Positions 17,487-28,237 of a stretch of DNA of 35,611 nucleotides are shown in pieces. This DNA comes from Pyramidobacter sp. C12-8. Its GTDB lineage: Bacteria; Synergistota; Synergistia; Synergistales; Dethiosulfovibrionaceae. The position numbers and the translations under genes are program-made. A model generated the notes under the pieces. The model saw only the letters and a list, made by a program, of their open reading frames with translations, made no database searches and was not told where the DNA came from. The stretch's first letter is position 1. Every line of letters begins with the position of its first letter. The DNA lies in assembly GCF_002007215.1 (NCBI RefSeq), contig NZ_MUHX01000029.1, positions 1 through 35,611 on the forward strand. The letters run 5' to 3'.

Positions 17487-18776
17487 TCATCCTTCGGCGG
17501 GAGGAACGGCGCTCTCTTTGGCCGCGGGGCCGGAATACTGGCCGAGCAGCAGGGCGAAATAGAAGTTGAAACAGGCATGGAAGCTGTGGATATCCTCGCC
17601 GGTGAGGCGCTTGATCTTCTCGAGACGGTAGATCAGCGTGTTGCGGTGGATGTGGAGCCGCCGCGCCGTCTCCACCAGCGAGAAGCCGCTTTCGCACCAG
17701 GCTCGGATCGTCTTTTCCAGCTCCGGCCAGTCGGATTTGCCGCGCAGATTGCCCGTCAAGGCCTTGATGAAACGGATGCGCACGGGCGCGTCGATGGTGG
17801 AGATCACGTCTTCCATGCGGAAATCGGCGATGCAGTACACGCCGGGACGCTGTTTGAACTTTTTGCCCAGCATCAGCGCCTTGCGGGCCTCCTGACAGCT
17901 GAACGACAGCGCCGCAACGCTGTGCGCCGGCGAGCCGATGCCGATGGCGGCTTTCAGCCCGTAGTCCTCGAGCCGGTCCAACAGACTCTGCGAGAGTCCG
18001 ACGACTTGGGCAAGCGCCGCCTTTTCGTGCTGCGGGTCGGCGTGGTCGGCGTCCTTGACGGCATGGAGCGTGACGAAGCGGTTGTTGCCGCTGATGCTGG
18101 AGACAGTGCGAGGATGGGAGAAGATGCCGCGCATTTCCGCGAGGACGGCCTTCTTGATGTTGAGGATGCGCATCTCCACCTCCCCGTCCCGACATTCGCG
18201 CCGGACCTCCAGCGCGTAGCGGCCGAACTGATAGAGGTCGACGACGATGGGGATGTAGAACAGGCTCGGATCGTACCCGAGCTCGATGGCCCGCGACTGA
18301 AGCATGGTCTCGTTGCCGACGCCGGGGACGAAAGTCTCCAGATCGTGGATGAGGTCCTGCAAAATGCTCTCGCGGCTGCTGGAGTAAACGTAAAGCTCGC
18401 GCTCGCGCAGCAGGATCTCGATCTGCTTTTTGACGATCAGCCCGAACGGGCGCACTTCGTCCGGCACGCCCGTCAGCGCCATGGTGCCGACGGTGCGTCC
18501 GTTCAGGTTCTGGATCGGGAACGTGACGCCGGGGAGCGTGCCCCTGAATTGGCGCGCCTGCTCCCGCGTCGTCTCGGAGGCCGTGCCGGTGCGCACCACT
18601 TCGAGCGAAGCCTCGTGCAGCTGGCCGATGCGCTCACTCTGGCTGGCGCCGATAATCTTGCCGTCCACGTCGGTGATGATGAGGTTATGGCCGATGATCG
18701 CCGCTGTGGAAGAAGCGATCTCCTGAGCGCATTTTTGTATTAATGTCATCTCATCTATTTTGCTATTTTTCATCAT
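17487..18776 (-). CDS. CdaR/PucR-family transcriptional regulator
   Basis: This 429-residue protein has the CdaR layout. A sugar-diacid-recognition-type sensor domain comes first (about 1-135: AQEIASSTAAIIGHNLIITD, GKIIGASQSERIGQLHEASL, GVTFPIQNLNGRTVGTMALTG). A GGDEF-like middle region follows. The PucR-type C-terminal helix-turn-helix ends it (about 360-410: CESGFSLVETARRLHIHRNT, then LIYRLEKIKRLTG). Two consecutive Met codons (18776 and 18773) are possible starts; the second is better spaced from GAGGTG. It is divergent from grdE with a 157-base shared region containing an 8-bp inverted repeat, so it probably controls the grd cluster. The ligand may be the reductase substrate rather than a sugar acid. 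Confidence 0.88.
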   Translation of the reverse strand: MMKNSKIDEMTLIQKCAQEIASSTAAIIGHNLIITDVDGKIIGASQSERIGQLHEASLEVVRTGTASETTREQARQFRGTLPGVTFPIQNLNGRTVGTMALTGVPDEVRPFGLIVKKQIEILLRERELYVYSSSRESILQDLIHDLETFVPGVGNETMLQSRAIELGYDPSLFYIPIVVDLYQFGRYALEVRRECRDGEVEMRILNIKKAVLAEMRGIFSHPRTVSSISGNNRFVTLHAVKDADHADPQHEKAALAQVVGLSQSLLDRLEDYGLKAAIGIGSPAHSVAALSFSCQEARKALMLGKKFKQRPGVYCIADFRMEDVISTIDAPVRIRFIKALTGNLRGKSDWPELEKTIRAWCESGFSLVETARRLHIHRNTLIYRLEKIKRLTGEDIHSFHACFNFYFALLLGQYSGPAAKESAVPPAEG

Positions 18777-18933: not shown

Positions 18934-20220
18934 ATGAGACTGGAACTTCGCAAAGCTCACGTGACCGGGCTTGAGTGGGGCAGTCCAACCCGCATGGAAA
19001 ACGGCGTGCTCTACGTCGACAAAGCGGGCTTGATCGCGGCGCTGTCTGACGACGACCGTATCGAAAAATGGGACGTCGATCTGGCCCGTCCCGGCGAATC
19101 GGTGCGCATCATCCCCGTCAAGGACGTGATCGAGCCGCGCGTCAAGCTCGAAGGCGGCGAAAGCTATTTCGCTTCCGTGATCGGCCCCAACGACACGGCG
19201 GGTGAAGGCGCGACGTTCGTGCTCGACGGCGCCGGCGTGGTCACCGTCGGCCCGATCATGGGATTCCAGGAAGGCTTTATCGACATGAGCGGGCCCGCCG
19301 CCAAGTTCAGCCCGTTCGCGGGGCTGTTCAACGTGGTGCTGATCGCCCAGCCCGTCAAGGACCTGGAAAAGCATCAATACGAGGAAGCGATCCGCATCGG
19401 CGGCCTGAAAGCCGCCGTCTGGCTGGCCGACTGCTGCAAGGATGCGAAGATCGACGCCACGGAAGTTTTCGAAAAAGGCACGGTGGCCGAAGAGCTGAAA
19501 AAGTATCCCGACCTGCCGCCCGTTGTCCACCTCTGCATGTGCATCACGCAGGGACTGCTGCACGACACGTACGTGTACGGCGCCGACGTCAAGACCTGCC
19601 TGCCCACGCTGCTGCACCCCAACGAAGTGCTCGACGGCGCCATGGTCTCCGGCAACTGCGTGTCCGCCTGCGACAAGACCACGACCTGGCACCACCTGCA
19701 CGACCCGGTGGTTTCCGAGCTGTACGCCCAGCACGGCAAGACCGTCAACTTCTTGGGCATGATCCCCACGCAGGAGTCGGTCGTCCTCGCCGGCAAGGAG
19801 CGCGCCTCGTCCTTCAACGCCCGCCTCTGCCGCGAGCTCGGCGCCAAGGGCGTGATCATCACCGAAGAGGGCTACGGCAATCCCGACAGCGACCTCTGCC
19901 TGAACGTCAACAAGTGCGAAGCGCTGGGCATGAGCACCGTGGTCATCGCCGACGAAGCCTCCGGCACCGACGGCGCCTCGCAGGGGCTGGCCGACGCCAC
20001 ACCGCAGATGACGGCCTTCGTCTCCTGCGGCAACGTCAACGAGATGCTCGAAGTGCCGGCCATGAAGAAAGTGATCGGCTTCATCGAGTCCATCGCCCAC
20101 GTTTCCGGCGGCGCGGCCGAGAGCCTTCGTCCCGACGGTTCCATGTACGTCGAACTGCAGTCGATCATCGGCTCGACCTGCGAGACCGGCTTCAACAAGT
20201 CCGGCTCGCTCTGGGTGTAA
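18934..20220 (+). CDS. grdE: Glycine/sarcosine/betaine reductase component B, alpha/beta proprotein
   Basis: This 428-residue protein is the GrdE-type proprotein of component B, which binds the amino substrate through a pyruvoyl cofactor. Known family members are cleaved at an Asn-Cys bond, the Cys becoming the pyruvoyl group. Here that site is Asn241-Cys242 in VSGNCVSACDKTTTWH. Family stretches such as LELRKAHVTGLEWG, GFQEGFIDMSGPAAKFSPF, CITQGLLHDTYVYG, FLGMIPTQESVVLAGKERA, and EEGYGNPDSDLCLNVNKCEA are visible. Length fits uncleaved GrdE (about 428). The ATG at 18934 has GAGGAGG 9 bases upstream. grdB follows after 14 bases. Whether the substrate is glycine, sarcosine, betaine or another amine cannot be decided by eye. 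Confidence 0.95.
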   Translation: MRLELRKAHVTGLEWGSPTRMENGVLYVDKAGLIAALSDDDRIEKWDVDLARPGESVRIIPVKDVIEPRVKLEGGESYFASVIGPNDTAGEGATFVLDGAGVVTVGPIMGFQEGFIDMSGPAAKFSPFAGLFNVVLIAQPVKDLEKHQYEEAIRIGGLKAAVWLADCCKDAKIDATEVFEKGTVAEELKKYPDLPPVVHLCMCITQGLLHDTYVYGADVKTCLPTLLHPNEVLDGAMVSGNCVSACDKTTTWHHLHDPVVSELYAQHGKTVNFLGMIPTQESVVLAGKERASSFNARLCRELGAKGVIITEEGYGNPDSDLCLNVNKCEALGMSTVVIADEASGTDGASQGLADATPQMTAFVSCGNVNEMLEVPAMKKVIGFIESIAHVSGGAAESLRPDGSMYVELQSIIGSTCETGFNKSGSLWV

Positions 20221-20234
20221 GGAGGGGATCGGTC

Positions 20235-21548
20235 ATGACGTTCCGCATCGTTCATTACATCAACCAGTTCTACGCCGGCATCGGCGGAGAAGAAATGGCC
20301 CACGTGCCGCCCGAAAAACGCGACGGCAAGGTCGGCCCCGGCGCCGCCCTTCAGGCAGAGCTGGGCAAAGAAGCCGAGATCGTCGGCACGGTGATCTGCG
20401 GCGACAACTACTTCAACGAACACAACGAAGAAGCCAAAAAGATTCTGCTCGAGATGATCGGCAGCTACAAGCCCGATCTGCTGATCGCCGGCCCGGCGTT
20501 CTTCGCCGGACGCTACGGCATGGCCTGCGGCGACATCTGCGCCGCCGTGCAGGACACGCTGGGCATTCCCGTCGTCACCGGCATGTATCCCGAGAATCCC
20601 GGCGCCGAGTCCTTCGCCAAGAAAGTCTTCATCGTCAAGACCGCCAACAGCGCCCGCGGCATCAAGGACGCGGCCAAATCCATGAGCTCGCTGGCGCTCA
20701 AGCTGCTCAAGAAGGAAACTCTCGGCCCCGCCGCCGACGAGAACTACATCAGCCGCGGCTTCCGACGCGTCTTCTTCCACGAGAAGAACGGCGCTCAGCG
20801 CGGCCTTGAGATGCTGCTCAAGAAGATGGCCGGCGAGCCGTTCCAGACCGAGTACGAGATGCCGACCTTCAAAAAGATCGAGCCCTGCGCTCCGGTCAAG
20901 GATCTCAAGCACGCCACCATCGCCCTGATCACCTCCGGCGGTATCGTTCCCAAGGGCAATCCCGACAAGATCCGCGTCTCTTCCGCGGAGTCTTACGGCC
21001 GCTACGACATCACCGGCCTCAACGACCTCACCCCCGAGAACTACGAGTCCATCCACGGCGGCTACGACACGCAGTGGGCCAACGCCAACCCCGATGTGGT
21101 GCTGCCGCTCGACGAGATGCGCGAGCTGGAGAAAGAGGGCAAGATCGGCAAGATCTACAAGTACGTGTACTGCACCACCGGCACCGGCACGGCCGTGGCC
21201 TGGGCCGAGAAGTTCGGCCAGGAGATCGGCCCGGAGCTGAAAGCCGCGGGCGTCGACGCCGCCATTCTCACCTCCACCTGAGGCTCCTGCACTCGATGCG
21301 GTGCATCGATGTCGCGTGAAATCGAGAAGGCCGCCGGCATCCCCGTCGTGCAGATCGCCACGATCGTGCCGATCATGATGACCGTCGGCTCCAACCGGAT
21401 CGTCCCCGGCGTCGCCATCCCCCACCCCGTGGGCAAGCCCGAGCTGGGCGACGCGGAAGACAAAAAAGCTCGCCGCAAGCTGCTCGAAAAGGCGCTCGAG
21501 GCGATGGTCACGCCGATCGACACGCAGACGATCTTCAAGGCGTTCTAG
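20235..21548 (+). CDS. grdB: Reductase component B selenoprotein subunit with in-frame UGA (selenocysteine)
   Basis: The full gene is 437 residues when UGA at 21279-21281 is read as selenocysteine (residue 349). Before the UGA the frame matches GrdB (YINQFYAGIGGEEMAHVPPE, GTVICGDNYFNEH, AGPAFFAGRYGMACG). After it the same frame continues with GSCTRCGASMSREIEKAAG and IPVVQIATIVPIMMTVGSNR, ending with TAG. TSTU-GSC-TRC is the expected U-x-x-C redox motif. A SECIS-like hairpin lies directly downstream of the UGA. Gene callers that stop at UGA would give a 348-residue fragment plus a 79-residue fragment beginning at 21309. Together with GrdE it binds the substrate as a Schiff base and passes a carboxymethyl group to selenoprotein A, which is not encoded here. 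The ribosome site GGAGGGG lies 8-14 bases before the ATG. Confidence 0.96.
21293..21309 (+). promoter_or_regulatory. Bacterial SECIS hairpin of grdB
   Basis: A perfect 7-bp stem (TCGATGC with GCATCGA) closes a GGT triloop. The loop begins 19 bases after the UGA (18 intervening bases), the same distance as the GGU in the E. coli fdhF SECIS. The loop GGU and the closing TGC/GCA pairs also match that element. It lies within the coding sequence, as expected for bacteria. Confidence 0.8.
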
Positions 21549-21586: not shown

Positions 21587-21625
21587 AGGCCGGCGGAACC
21601 TCGTCGGGTTCTGCCGGCCTTTTTG
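21587..21625 (+). terminator. Terminator after grdB
   Basis: A 14-bp stem with one bulge (AGGCCGGC-GGAACC with its complement), a 5-base loop and five Ts. It separates grdEB from grdX, so grdX and the transporter are probably reached by readthrough or by a promoter in 21626-21743 that was not clearly seen. Confidence 0.85.
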
Positions 21626-21743
21626 TCGCGCCGCAATAATGAATTTTTTCACGAACTGCGCTTCTTTGGATCATTCGTTGGAGGTTTGCTAAAGCTGTTT
21701 ATGCCTTGATATGCAGCGACAATTTTTCGGAGGTCAGCGACTC

Positions 21744-22100
21744 ATGATCATCACAAACAATCCCGACGTGCAGTCGGCACAGCTGGGCGAAACGCTTTTG
21801 GTGAGGGGGACGCCGCTGGATGTTCTGCAGGCCGTTTCCGATTACATGGAGAAAGGCTGGCATCTCGTCACGCATCCGCTGTCGGCGAACAACCGTCTCA
21901 ACAAAAGCCCCTATCGCTCCGTCGTCCTGTCTGAAAAAAACTCATGGGAGGGCAGCGAACGGGACATACTCGACCGGGCGATCAGCCATTTGTCGCTGCA
22001 GGGATTTGACGATCCCGGGGACGCCGACGCCGATTACCGCTGGATCGACCTTGAACATCTGAAGACGGCTCTTTTCGAAGCGGCGAAGTTCCACCTGTGA
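21744..22100 (+). CDS. grdX: GrdX-family protein
   Basis: This 118-residue cytoplasmic protein matches the small GrdX family found only in glycine, sarcosine or betaine reductase loci. Its reaction is unknown. Recognisable pieces are IITNNPDV at the start, GTPLDVLQAVSDYMEKGWHL followed by VTHPLSANN in the middle, and SPYRSVVLSEK. The ATG at 21744 has GGAGG 10 bases upstream; an in-frame extension to 21711 is poorly supported. The C-terminal part (WIDLEHLKTALFEAAKFHL) is helical. Its presence between grdB and the transporter supports assigning the whole region to amino acid or amine reduction. Confidence 0.85.
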   Translation: MIITNNPDVQSAQLGETLLVRGTPLDVLQAVSDYMEKGWHLVTHPLSANNRLNKSPYRSVVLSEKNSWEGSERDILDRAISHLSLQGFDDPGDADADYRWIDLEHLKTALFEAAKFHL

Positions 22101-22185
22101 TCGAGCCTCCGCCGTGGGCGGGGAGCGAAACGGCCGGCCGTGAAACGCGGCCATGGATTATCGAAAGAGAAAGGAATGGATCATT

Positions 22186-23571
22186 ATGGAAGAACAGAAA
22201 CGAGACGGTTTTGGCAGTCGCATCGGCTTTATTCTCTCGGCCGCCGGATTCTCCATCGGCCTTGGCAACGTCTGGCGTTTTCCCTATTTGACCAGCAAGT
22301 TCGGCGGCGGCGCTTTCGTGCTGGCTTACGTGCTGATCTGCGTTTTCATCGGGCTGCCCCTGTTCCTGGGCGAGCTGAGCATCGGCCGCCGCATGAAGGC
22401 GACGCCCATCGTCGGTTTTGTCCGCGAGAAGAAGATCGGCTGGTCGCTGATCGGCTGGATCGGCGCCATTGCCTGCATCGTGCTGATGGCTTACTACACG
22501 GTTATCATCGGCTGGATGGTCCGCTACGCCGTCAAAGCCCTGAGCGGAGTTTTCGCCGGTTCAACCTTTGAGCAGACCAAAGTGATGTTCAACGATTTCA
22601 TGAAAAACCCCTTCGAGCTGATCGCCTACACCGTCGTCGTCTTCGCCGCGCTCGGCATGGCGATCTCGCGCGGCGTCAAGGAAGGCGTCGAAAAGCTCTG
22701 CAAGTGGCTGCTGCCCATCCTCGGCGTCATGATCGTGACGCTGGCCGTCCGTTCGCTGACGCTGAGCCCCGTCGAGGGCGTCGGCAAGACCGCCATGGAC
22801 GGCCTGAGATGGTATCTCAGCCCCGATTTCAGCCAGCTGGGCAATCCCGAAGTGTGGCTGTATGCCCTCGGGCAGAGCTTCTTCTCCATCGGCGTCGGCA
22901 TCGCCACCGCCGTCGTGTACGGTTCCTACCGCAGCGACACCGACAACATGCCCAAGGACGCCGCCATGGTCGTGACCATGGATACCTCTTTCGCGCTGAT
23001 CGCCGGCGTGGTCATCTTCCCGGCGCTGCTCGTCTACGGCGCCGATCCCAACTCCAGCGGCGTCGGCCTGGTCATGGAAGTCATGCCCGTCGTCTTCGGC
23101 AAGATGCCCATGGGGTCGTTCTGGGCTTCGCTGTTCTTCATCCTCGTCGCCGTCGCCGGCTACACCTCCGGCCTTGGATACCTCGAAGCTCCCGTGGCCT
23201 GCTTCGCCGATTTCTTCAAGGTGAAGCGCAGCAAGATGACCTGGATCGTCGTCTTCATCATGTTCGTGCTCAGCCTGCCCTGCGCCTATTCACTGAGCGA
23301 AGGGCACGGCTGGATGTCCACGTACCGGGTCCTCGGCAAGAGCATCTTCGACTTCGCCGATTACCTGTCGGGCAACGTGATGATGCCCGTCGACGCGCTG
23401 CTCGTTTCGCTCTACGTCTCCTTCGTGCTGAAGTTCAAGGGCTACATGGAAGAAGCGAACAAGGGCCTGAGCGAAAGCCACACCTGGAGAGTCAAGGACT
23501 GGTGGATGCCCTGGGTCACTTACGGCCTGCCCGTCGTCCTGATCGTGATCATGTACCGCAACGTGTTCTAG
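22186..23571 (+). CDS. Sodium-dependent transporter of the NSS (SNF) family
   Basis: This 461-residue protein with about 11-12 membrane helices belongs to the neurotransmitter:sodium symporter family, Na+-coupled uptake of amino acids or related amines. The family signature is in helix 1: GFILSAAGFSIGLGNVWRFP, then YLTSKFGGGAFVL (unwound helix 1 with Na+ and substrate contacts). Further features are ELSIGRRMKATP in the first loop, GQSFFSIGVGIATAVVYGSY in helix 6, and a short C-terminal tail ending MYRNVF. Length is typical of bacterial members. The ATG at 22186 is preferred over one at 22153 because AAAGGA lies 10 bases before it and the signature follows directly. As last gene of the grd cluster it probably imports the reductase substrate. 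A terminator follows at 23617. Confidence 0.92.
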   Translation: MEEQKRDGFGSRIGFILSAAGFSIGLGNVWRFPYLTSKFGGGAFVLAYVLICVFIGLPLFLGELSIGRRMKATPIVGFVREKKIGWSLIGWIGAIACIVLMAYYTVIIGWMVRYAVKALSGVFAGSTFEQTKVMFNDFMKNPFELIAYTVVVFAALGMAISRGVKEGVEKLCKWLLPILGVMIVTLAVRSLTLSPVEGVGKTAMDGLRWYLSPDFSQLGNPEVWLYALGQSFFSIGVGIATAVVYGSYRSDTDNMPKDAAMVVTMDTSFALIAGVVIFPALLVYGADPNSSGVGLVMEVMPVVFGKMPMGSFWASLFFILVAVAGYTSGLGYLEAPVACFADFFKVKRSKMTWIVVFIMFVLSLPCAYSLSEGHGWMSTYRVLGKSIFDFADYLSGNVMMPVDALLVSLYVSFVLKFKGYMEEANKGLSESHTWRVKDWWMPWVTYGLPVVLIVIMYRNVF

Positions 23572-27046: not shown

Positions 27047-28237
27047 ATGAAGGAAAAAATGTTTGCGCTGATCGACGCGTTGAAGCCGGAGCTGTCGGCG
27101 ATGTCCGACGACATTTACGATCATCCCGAGGTCGGCCTGACGGAGGTCCACGCCTCGTCGCTGCTGACGGGATGGCTGGAGAAGCGCGGCTTCGCGGTGG
27201 AGCGCGGCGTCGGCGGCCTGCCCACGGCCTTCCGCGCCGTGTACCGCCGCGGCGAAGGCGGCCCGCGCATCGGCCTGCTCTGCGAGTACGACGCGCTGCC
27301 CGCGCTGGGGCACGCCTGCGGCCACCAGATGCAAGGGCCGTGCATCCTCGCGGCCGCCGCGGCGCTGAAGGATTCCGACCTGCCCGGCCCGTTCTCGGTG
27401 GTCGTCTACGGCACGCCCGCCGAGGAGACGGAGGGCGGCAAGATCCTCATGATCAAAAACGGCGACTGCTTCCACGACATCGACGTGGCCCTGATGATGC
27501 ACGGCAGCGGCGAGACGACGACCGACATCAAATCGATGGCGCTGACGAACTTCTTCGTCGCCTATCGCGGCACGGCGGCGCACGCGGCGATCAAGCCCGA
27601 ACTGGGGCGCAGCTCGCTGGACGCGATGTCGCTGGCGTTCCACGGCGTGGAGTGCCTGCGCGAGCACGTCAAGGAGGACACGCGCATCCACTACAACATC
27701 ACGGACGGCGGCGGCACGGGCGCGAACACGGTGCCGTCTTTCACCAAAGCGCAGTTCTACGTGAGGTCCTACAACCGCGCCTATCTGGAGAGCGTGATCG
27801 CGCGCTTCCTCAAGGTGCTGCGCGGCGCGGCCATGATGACGGAAACGGAAGTGGAGATCGAGCGCCGCAAGGACGTGGACAACAAAATCCCGGCGTTGAA
27901 GCTGAACGACGTGATCATGGAAAACGCGCGCGCCGTGAACGCGCCGGCGATCCGCCCGCCGCGCCAGAAGACCGGCTCGACCGATCTCGGCAACGTCATG
28001 CAGCTCATGCCGGGTTCGTGCATCCGCGTGGCCTTCGTGCCCGAGGGTTCGCCCTCGCACTCGCAGGCGTACCTCGACGCCGGCAAGACGGATACGGCCC
28101 ACAGCGCCATCGTCACCGGCGCCAAGGTGCTGGCCGCCACGGCGGCCGACCTGATCTCCGTCCCCGGTCTGCTGGACGAAATCAAAAAAGAGTTCGCAAC
28201 GCGCAAGGCGCAGCTCGAGGCTGAGTCGCGCGCGTAG
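27047..28237 (+). CDS. M20-family amidohydrolase (AbgB/M20D type)
   Basis: This 396-residue metal-dependent amidohydrolase has the M20 catalytic pieces: DDIYDHPEVGLTE at the N-terminus, LLCEYDALPALGHACGH with Cys91 and His93, the general base pair in TPAEETEGG (Glu126-Glu127), and a lid domain around ALTNFFVAYRGTAAHAAIKP. The CEYDALP/ACGHQMQG form resembles p-aminobenzoyl-glutamate hydrolase subunit B and related enzymes that cut N-acyl or peptide bonds of amino acid conjugates. There is no signal peptide. It is first in the operon, after an IclR-type control region, and is followed after 63 bases by a YfcC-type carrier. The exact substrate is unknown. Confidence 0.9.
   Translation: MKEKMFALIDALKPELSAMSDDIYDHPEVGLTEVHASSLLTGWLEKRGFAVERGVGGLPTAFRAVYRRGEGGPRIGLLCEYDALPALGHACGHQMQGPCILAAAAALKDSDLPGPFSVVVYGTPAEETEGGKILMIKNGDCFHDIDVALMMHGSGETTTDIKSMALTNFFVAYRGTAAHAAIKPELGRSSLDAMSLAFHGVECLREHVKEDTRIHYNITDGGGTGANTVPSFTKAQFYVRSYNRAYLESVIARFLKVLRGAAMMTETEVEIERRKDVDNKIPALKLNDVIMENARAVNAPAIRPPRQKTGSTDLGNVMQLMPGSCIRVAFVPEGSPSHSQAYLDAGKTDTAHSAIVTGAKVLAATAADLISVPGLLDEIKKEFATRKAQLEAESRA

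Follow-up and report, generated by a model that had tools for sequence, protein, structure and literature searches.

Known grd selenoproteins and bacterial SECIS elements

In-frame TGA codons in grd genes have been on record since 1995 (Kreimer and Andreesen, as cited in PMC9312934). Within the Synergistota, Cloacibacillus porcorum MFA1 has been reported to have sel genes and a SECIS element in each of its eight grdB genes (PMC10838667). The upper stem–loop of the Escherichia coli SECIS element lies at positions 15–31 and includes U17, G23 and U24 (PMC8659212). A published model of bacterial SECIS elements allows a loop of 3–9 nt, a stem of 4–16 bp and a spacing of 16–37 nt, with G among the first two loop positions and an energy not above −7.5 kcal/mol (PMC13188914). 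The UGA and hairpin type of the grdB gene considered here are already known in this sense: they belong to an ordinary selenoprotein with a catalogued SECIS element.

The window referred to below is the whole stretch of DNA analysed, 35,611 nt of contig NZ_MUHX01000029.1 from Pyramidobacter sp. C12-8, an anaerobe of the Synergistota. The features that make up the gene are as follows.

20235–21548 (+), grdB-like selenoprotein B gene with predicted Sec at residue 349 (TIGR01918, PF07355, translation)
21279–21281 (+), UGA predicted to be read as selenocysteine (U349); the only break in the frame; orthologues and paralogues also have UGA at this codon
21293–21309 (+), predicted SECIS hairpin, 7 bp with a GGU loop (fold, codon null, conservation, compensatory changes, SECIS_4 at 24.5 bits)
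21309–21548 (+), spurious ORF of 79 codons that might be reported by a gene caller, in fact the GrdB C-terminus (sequence, orthologue homology through the UGA)

Gene model of grdB

The frame at 20235–21548 comprises 437 residues, and translation bears out the original prediction that the UGA at 21279 (codon 349) is its sole interruption and that it runs on to a natural stop, a TAG at 21546–21548. The motif predicted to span the UGA, TSTU followed by GSCTRC, is present: U349 is surrounded by TSTUGSCTRCGASM, of which TSTUGSCTRC forms residues 346–355. The predicted mass of approximately 47.3 kDa also agrees with the size of about 47 kDa that had been proposed. A false 79-residue gene had been expected from automatic annotation, and an ATG at 21309 does open a 79-codon ORF in the same frame; a sister gene, farB in Cloacibacillus MFA1, has been split in this way and carries two locus tags (PMC10838667). 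The gene model is settled as one 437-residue selenoprotein and not two ORFs. The GrdB label holds at the level of the selenoprotein B family; in the strict sense it may be too narrow, since the subunit may be of the sarcosine type (GrdF).

On the strength of the sequence, the conserved UGA, the constrained hairpin, the complete sel machinery and the presence of GrdA, GrdE and GrdX, we consider this to be a genuine selenoprotein gene (probability about 0.97), encoding the Sec-bearing subunit of a substrate-specific protein B in the glycine/sarcosine/betaine reductase family. With the ribosome at UGA 349, SelB carrying Sec-tRNA would bind the hairpin at 21293–21309; selenocysteine would be inserted at 349 and translation would continue as far as TAG 21546. 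Within the UxxCxxC site, the Sec would help to move the substrate's carboxymethyl group from the GrdE-type partner that holds it onto the GrdA selenol. We infer both the recoding in Pyramidobacter sp. C12-8 itself and the chemistry, the latter from what is established for the family.

The Pfam GRDB model (PF07355, 347 positions), which aligns with 20241–21278 of the window, stops at the residue before Sec. This end looks like a UGA truncation built into the family model.

Structure and codon choice of the hairpin

The hairpin comprises 17 nt, with 7 bp formed by arms at 21293–21299 and 21303–21309, a GGU loop at 21300–21302 and a UGA-to-loop spacing of 18 nt; the stem, triloop and spacing had all been described as such from the sequence. 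It lies within the published bacterial model on every point (loop 3, stem 7, G, spacing 18, −7.9 kcal/mol; PMC13188914), and no difference was found. The GGU triloop is real, but describing it as minimal over-rated it, since that model allows 3-nt loops. The comparison with E. coli, in which the hairpin was called smaller, was likewise overstated. The hairpin also spans positions 15–31, with G23 and U24 in the loop; it differs from the E. coli element, which has a bulged U17, in having no bulge and a paired G17.

At the Rfam gathering score there was no match in the window. A relaxed search placed SECIS_4 (RF01990) in register at 21287–21311 with 24.5 bits, below the gathering score of 38, while two sister grdB copies in the genome, on contigs C112 and C10, scored above it (60 and 38.5 bits, respectively). 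The distance between UGA and hairpin in GrdB is the same in SECIS_4 as in the window; pair 18–28 is U–A in the two matching sister copies and A–U in the window copy.

Folded alone, the 17-mer has an energy of −7.9 kcal/mol (z = −2.9). The 43-nt region showed no extra stability against shuffles (z = −0.07), so that energy alone is no proof of the hairpin, and it is the codon choices that provide it. In the local genes the codons GGT, GCA and CGA make up 4.7%, 1.6% and 4.1% of those for Gly, Ala and Arg, respectively, and the hairpin site uses all three. When the fixed peptide was back-translated with this local codon usage, 0.16% of the resulting sequences formed 7 or more pairs at the hairpin position, and 0.005% (approximately 5 × 10−5) did so around a GGU loop. 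The stem is partly dictated by the peptide CGA (TGC against GC).

Conservation of the UGA and hairpin in relatives

GrdB matches were found in 134 of 188 Synergistota genomes, and the full-length matches in the phylum, among those listed, contain a TGA. The interrupting codon is nearly always UGA and not another stop, and the C-terminal part is kept in frame across it in orthologues of 65–99% identity (83% for a Jonquetella-like orthologue). The UGA is shared with a second genome of this species (G011) and with both other genera of the family.

A stem of 6–7 bp is present at the same position in 126 of 128 distinct UGA sites, although these are related sequences and the counts are not independent events. 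Pair 18–28 is seen as T–A, A–T, G–T and C–G (four standard pair types), and pair 16–30, otherwise C–G, is A–T in two sequences, a double change from C–G to A–U. In register, 96% of cells are paired, against 13–71% when the register is slid. The stem Ala codon is GCA in all 126 of the 126 (again related) sequences, compared with 14.7% in flanking codons. Every sequence in the set has a paired G17, whereas all four bases occur at loop position 24 (T 54, C 34, G 5 and A 3 among 96 distinct sequences of the phylum), so that the position of the E. coli U24 is not conserved in Synergistota. Clostridia and others have the same hairpin in their grdB genes, sometimes reduced to 5 bp.

Two paralogues that contain Cys and share the RCGA peptide have not kept the perfect stem. 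Their use as clean negative controls for the hairpin was abandoned because one can fold into a hairpin with a bulge, which makes them weak controls.

In two betaine-type grdB genes, L003 (the copy on C10) and L056, GGG-TCA replaces GGN-GCA. With Ser in place of Ala the loop-closing pair is lost, and what remains is 6 bp around a CGGGU loop (−4.3 kcal/mol); their sister L054 retains GGG-GCA.

We tentatively suggest, while thinking it rather less probable than its opposite, that SelB in Synergistota and Clostridia reads in grdB a short stem that has no bulge and a GG-N loop in which any third base is accepted, in contrast to E. coli, where U17 and U24 matter, and that the Pyramidobacter-like betaine-type copy works without the closing pair (CGGGU). 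If true, SelB would follow a recognition rule of its own in the two groups, and the variable third loop base makes SECIS reading by SelB of these phyla a small, testable question.

Alternative explanations

Were the UGA a true stop, the locus would encode a truncated protein of 348 residues and a separate protein of 79 residues starting at ATG 21309. The ATG exists, and a mechanical list of ORFs would show two; this reading is nevertheless extremely improbable given that the C-terminus continues in frame in orthologues, that the codon is nearly always UGA and not another stop, that the hairpin is constrained at silent sites and that the sel machinery is present. A sequencing error or pseudogene mutation, for which no point in favour was found, is less credible still and can be regarded as refuted, the same UGA recurring in G011 and in the other two genera.

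It could also be supposed that the UGA is recoded as Sec but that the hairpin, as a by-product of encoding RCGA, is not what SelB recognises. Two or three of the seven pairs do involve bases fixed by the Cys and Ala codons, and the unexceptional free energy in context, the missing closing pair in two Pyramidobacter-like betaine-type copies and the variation at loop base 24 point the same way. Against this, the choices at silent positions are far from codon usage, compensatory changes are seen, and SECIS_4 of Rfam covers the hairpin; the two Cys paralogues share RCGA without keeping the perfect stem, even if one can still form a bulged hairpin. A by-product is very improbable, and the hairpin is best read as the SECIS element of a recoded grdB.

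Family membership and substrate type

Membership of the GrdB/GrdF/GrdI family is indicated by TIGR01918 (590 bits, cut-off 65) and PF07355 (543 bits, cut-off 22), by likeness over the whole length, the UxxCxxC site, GrdE upstream and GrdX downstream. There is no difference of substance from the family; the window copy falls under the cut-off of every substrate model. The best of these was sarcosine GrdF (627 bits, cut-off 800), followed by glycine (564 bits, cut-off 602). By comparison, the C112 copy exceeds the cut-off of the glycine model (644 bits), and the C10 copy is nearest to betaine (670 bits, cut-off 775) and is followed by what appears by eye to be a BCCT-transporter-like frame. The window gene would then encode a protein B subunit distinct from that on C112, which is clearly of the glycine type; judged from sequence, the sarcosine type is the leading candidate, at roughly even odds, and the glycine type is possible and ranks below it. 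Naming a single substrate was abandoned, as both models are below cut-off and GrdX and the symporter described below fit either. A sequence search of the PDB returned no solved relative.

Selenocysteine machinery and other grd genes

The original prediction held that the genome must carry selA, selB, selC and selD, and all four were found in the 2.67 Mb assembly (99.3% complete). selA and selB (a 667-aa frame) are on contig C111, tRNA-Sec (selC) is on C99 (66.3 bits, gathering score 47) and selD is on C155. Absence of the selC tRNA and selB, which had been named as evidence against recoding, was looked for, and both are present. The search for other GrdB and GrdA genes proposed at the same time was also productive, and these too contain UGA: there are four full-length grdB genes in the genome, with UGA at the same codon, and a single grdA on C144 (PF04723, 245.8 bits) with one TGA in the motif CFVU. 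Pyramidobacter sp. C12-8 has a complete set of genes for Sec-dependent amino-acid reductase.

The selD gene itself contains a UGA (HSSGUAAKIG), with a stable hairpin behind it. In addition, a FarE homologue is encoded on C144 (L166:3378–4673, −; NF053623, 935 bits, cut-off 675) and adjoins a Sec-containing GrdB-like gene. The genome is likely to carry a FarE/FarB-like fluoroacetate reductase pair of the kind described in Pyramidobacter piscolens and Cloacibacillus. An N-terminally shortened GrdB paralogue with Cys for Sec and without a perfect SECIS stem lies at L166:4815–5636 (−), upstream of the farE-like gene; G011 has two places with such a shortened Cys-type paralogue.

Neighbourhood of grdB

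The following features flank grdB in the window.

17487–18776 (−), CdaR/PucR-type regulator, divergent from the grd genes (PF05651, PF13556, PF17853)
18934–20220 (+), grdE-like gene, the other subunit of substrate-binding protein B (PF09338, 611 bits)
21587–21627 (+), strong intrinsic terminator behind grdB, a 15-bp stem followed by a T run
21744–22100 (+), grdX-family gene (NF038093, 93.9 bits, cut-off 40)
22153–23571 (+), transporter of the sodium:neurotransmitter symporter family (PF00209, NF037979)

The grdE-like gene scores 507 bits with the sarcosine GrdG model, below its cut-off of 780. Folding of the terminator gave −30.2 kcal/mol (z = −6.3). The symporter gene product may perhaps import the substrate. 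A Synergistaceae contig (L172) has the same order of divergent regulator, grdE, grdB and grdX, followed by what appears by eye to be a grdA-like frame.

ARAGORN reported a tRNA-Val (cac) at 27887–27969 (−), on the opposite strand to a peptidase-like gene (27047–28237). This is probably a false call.
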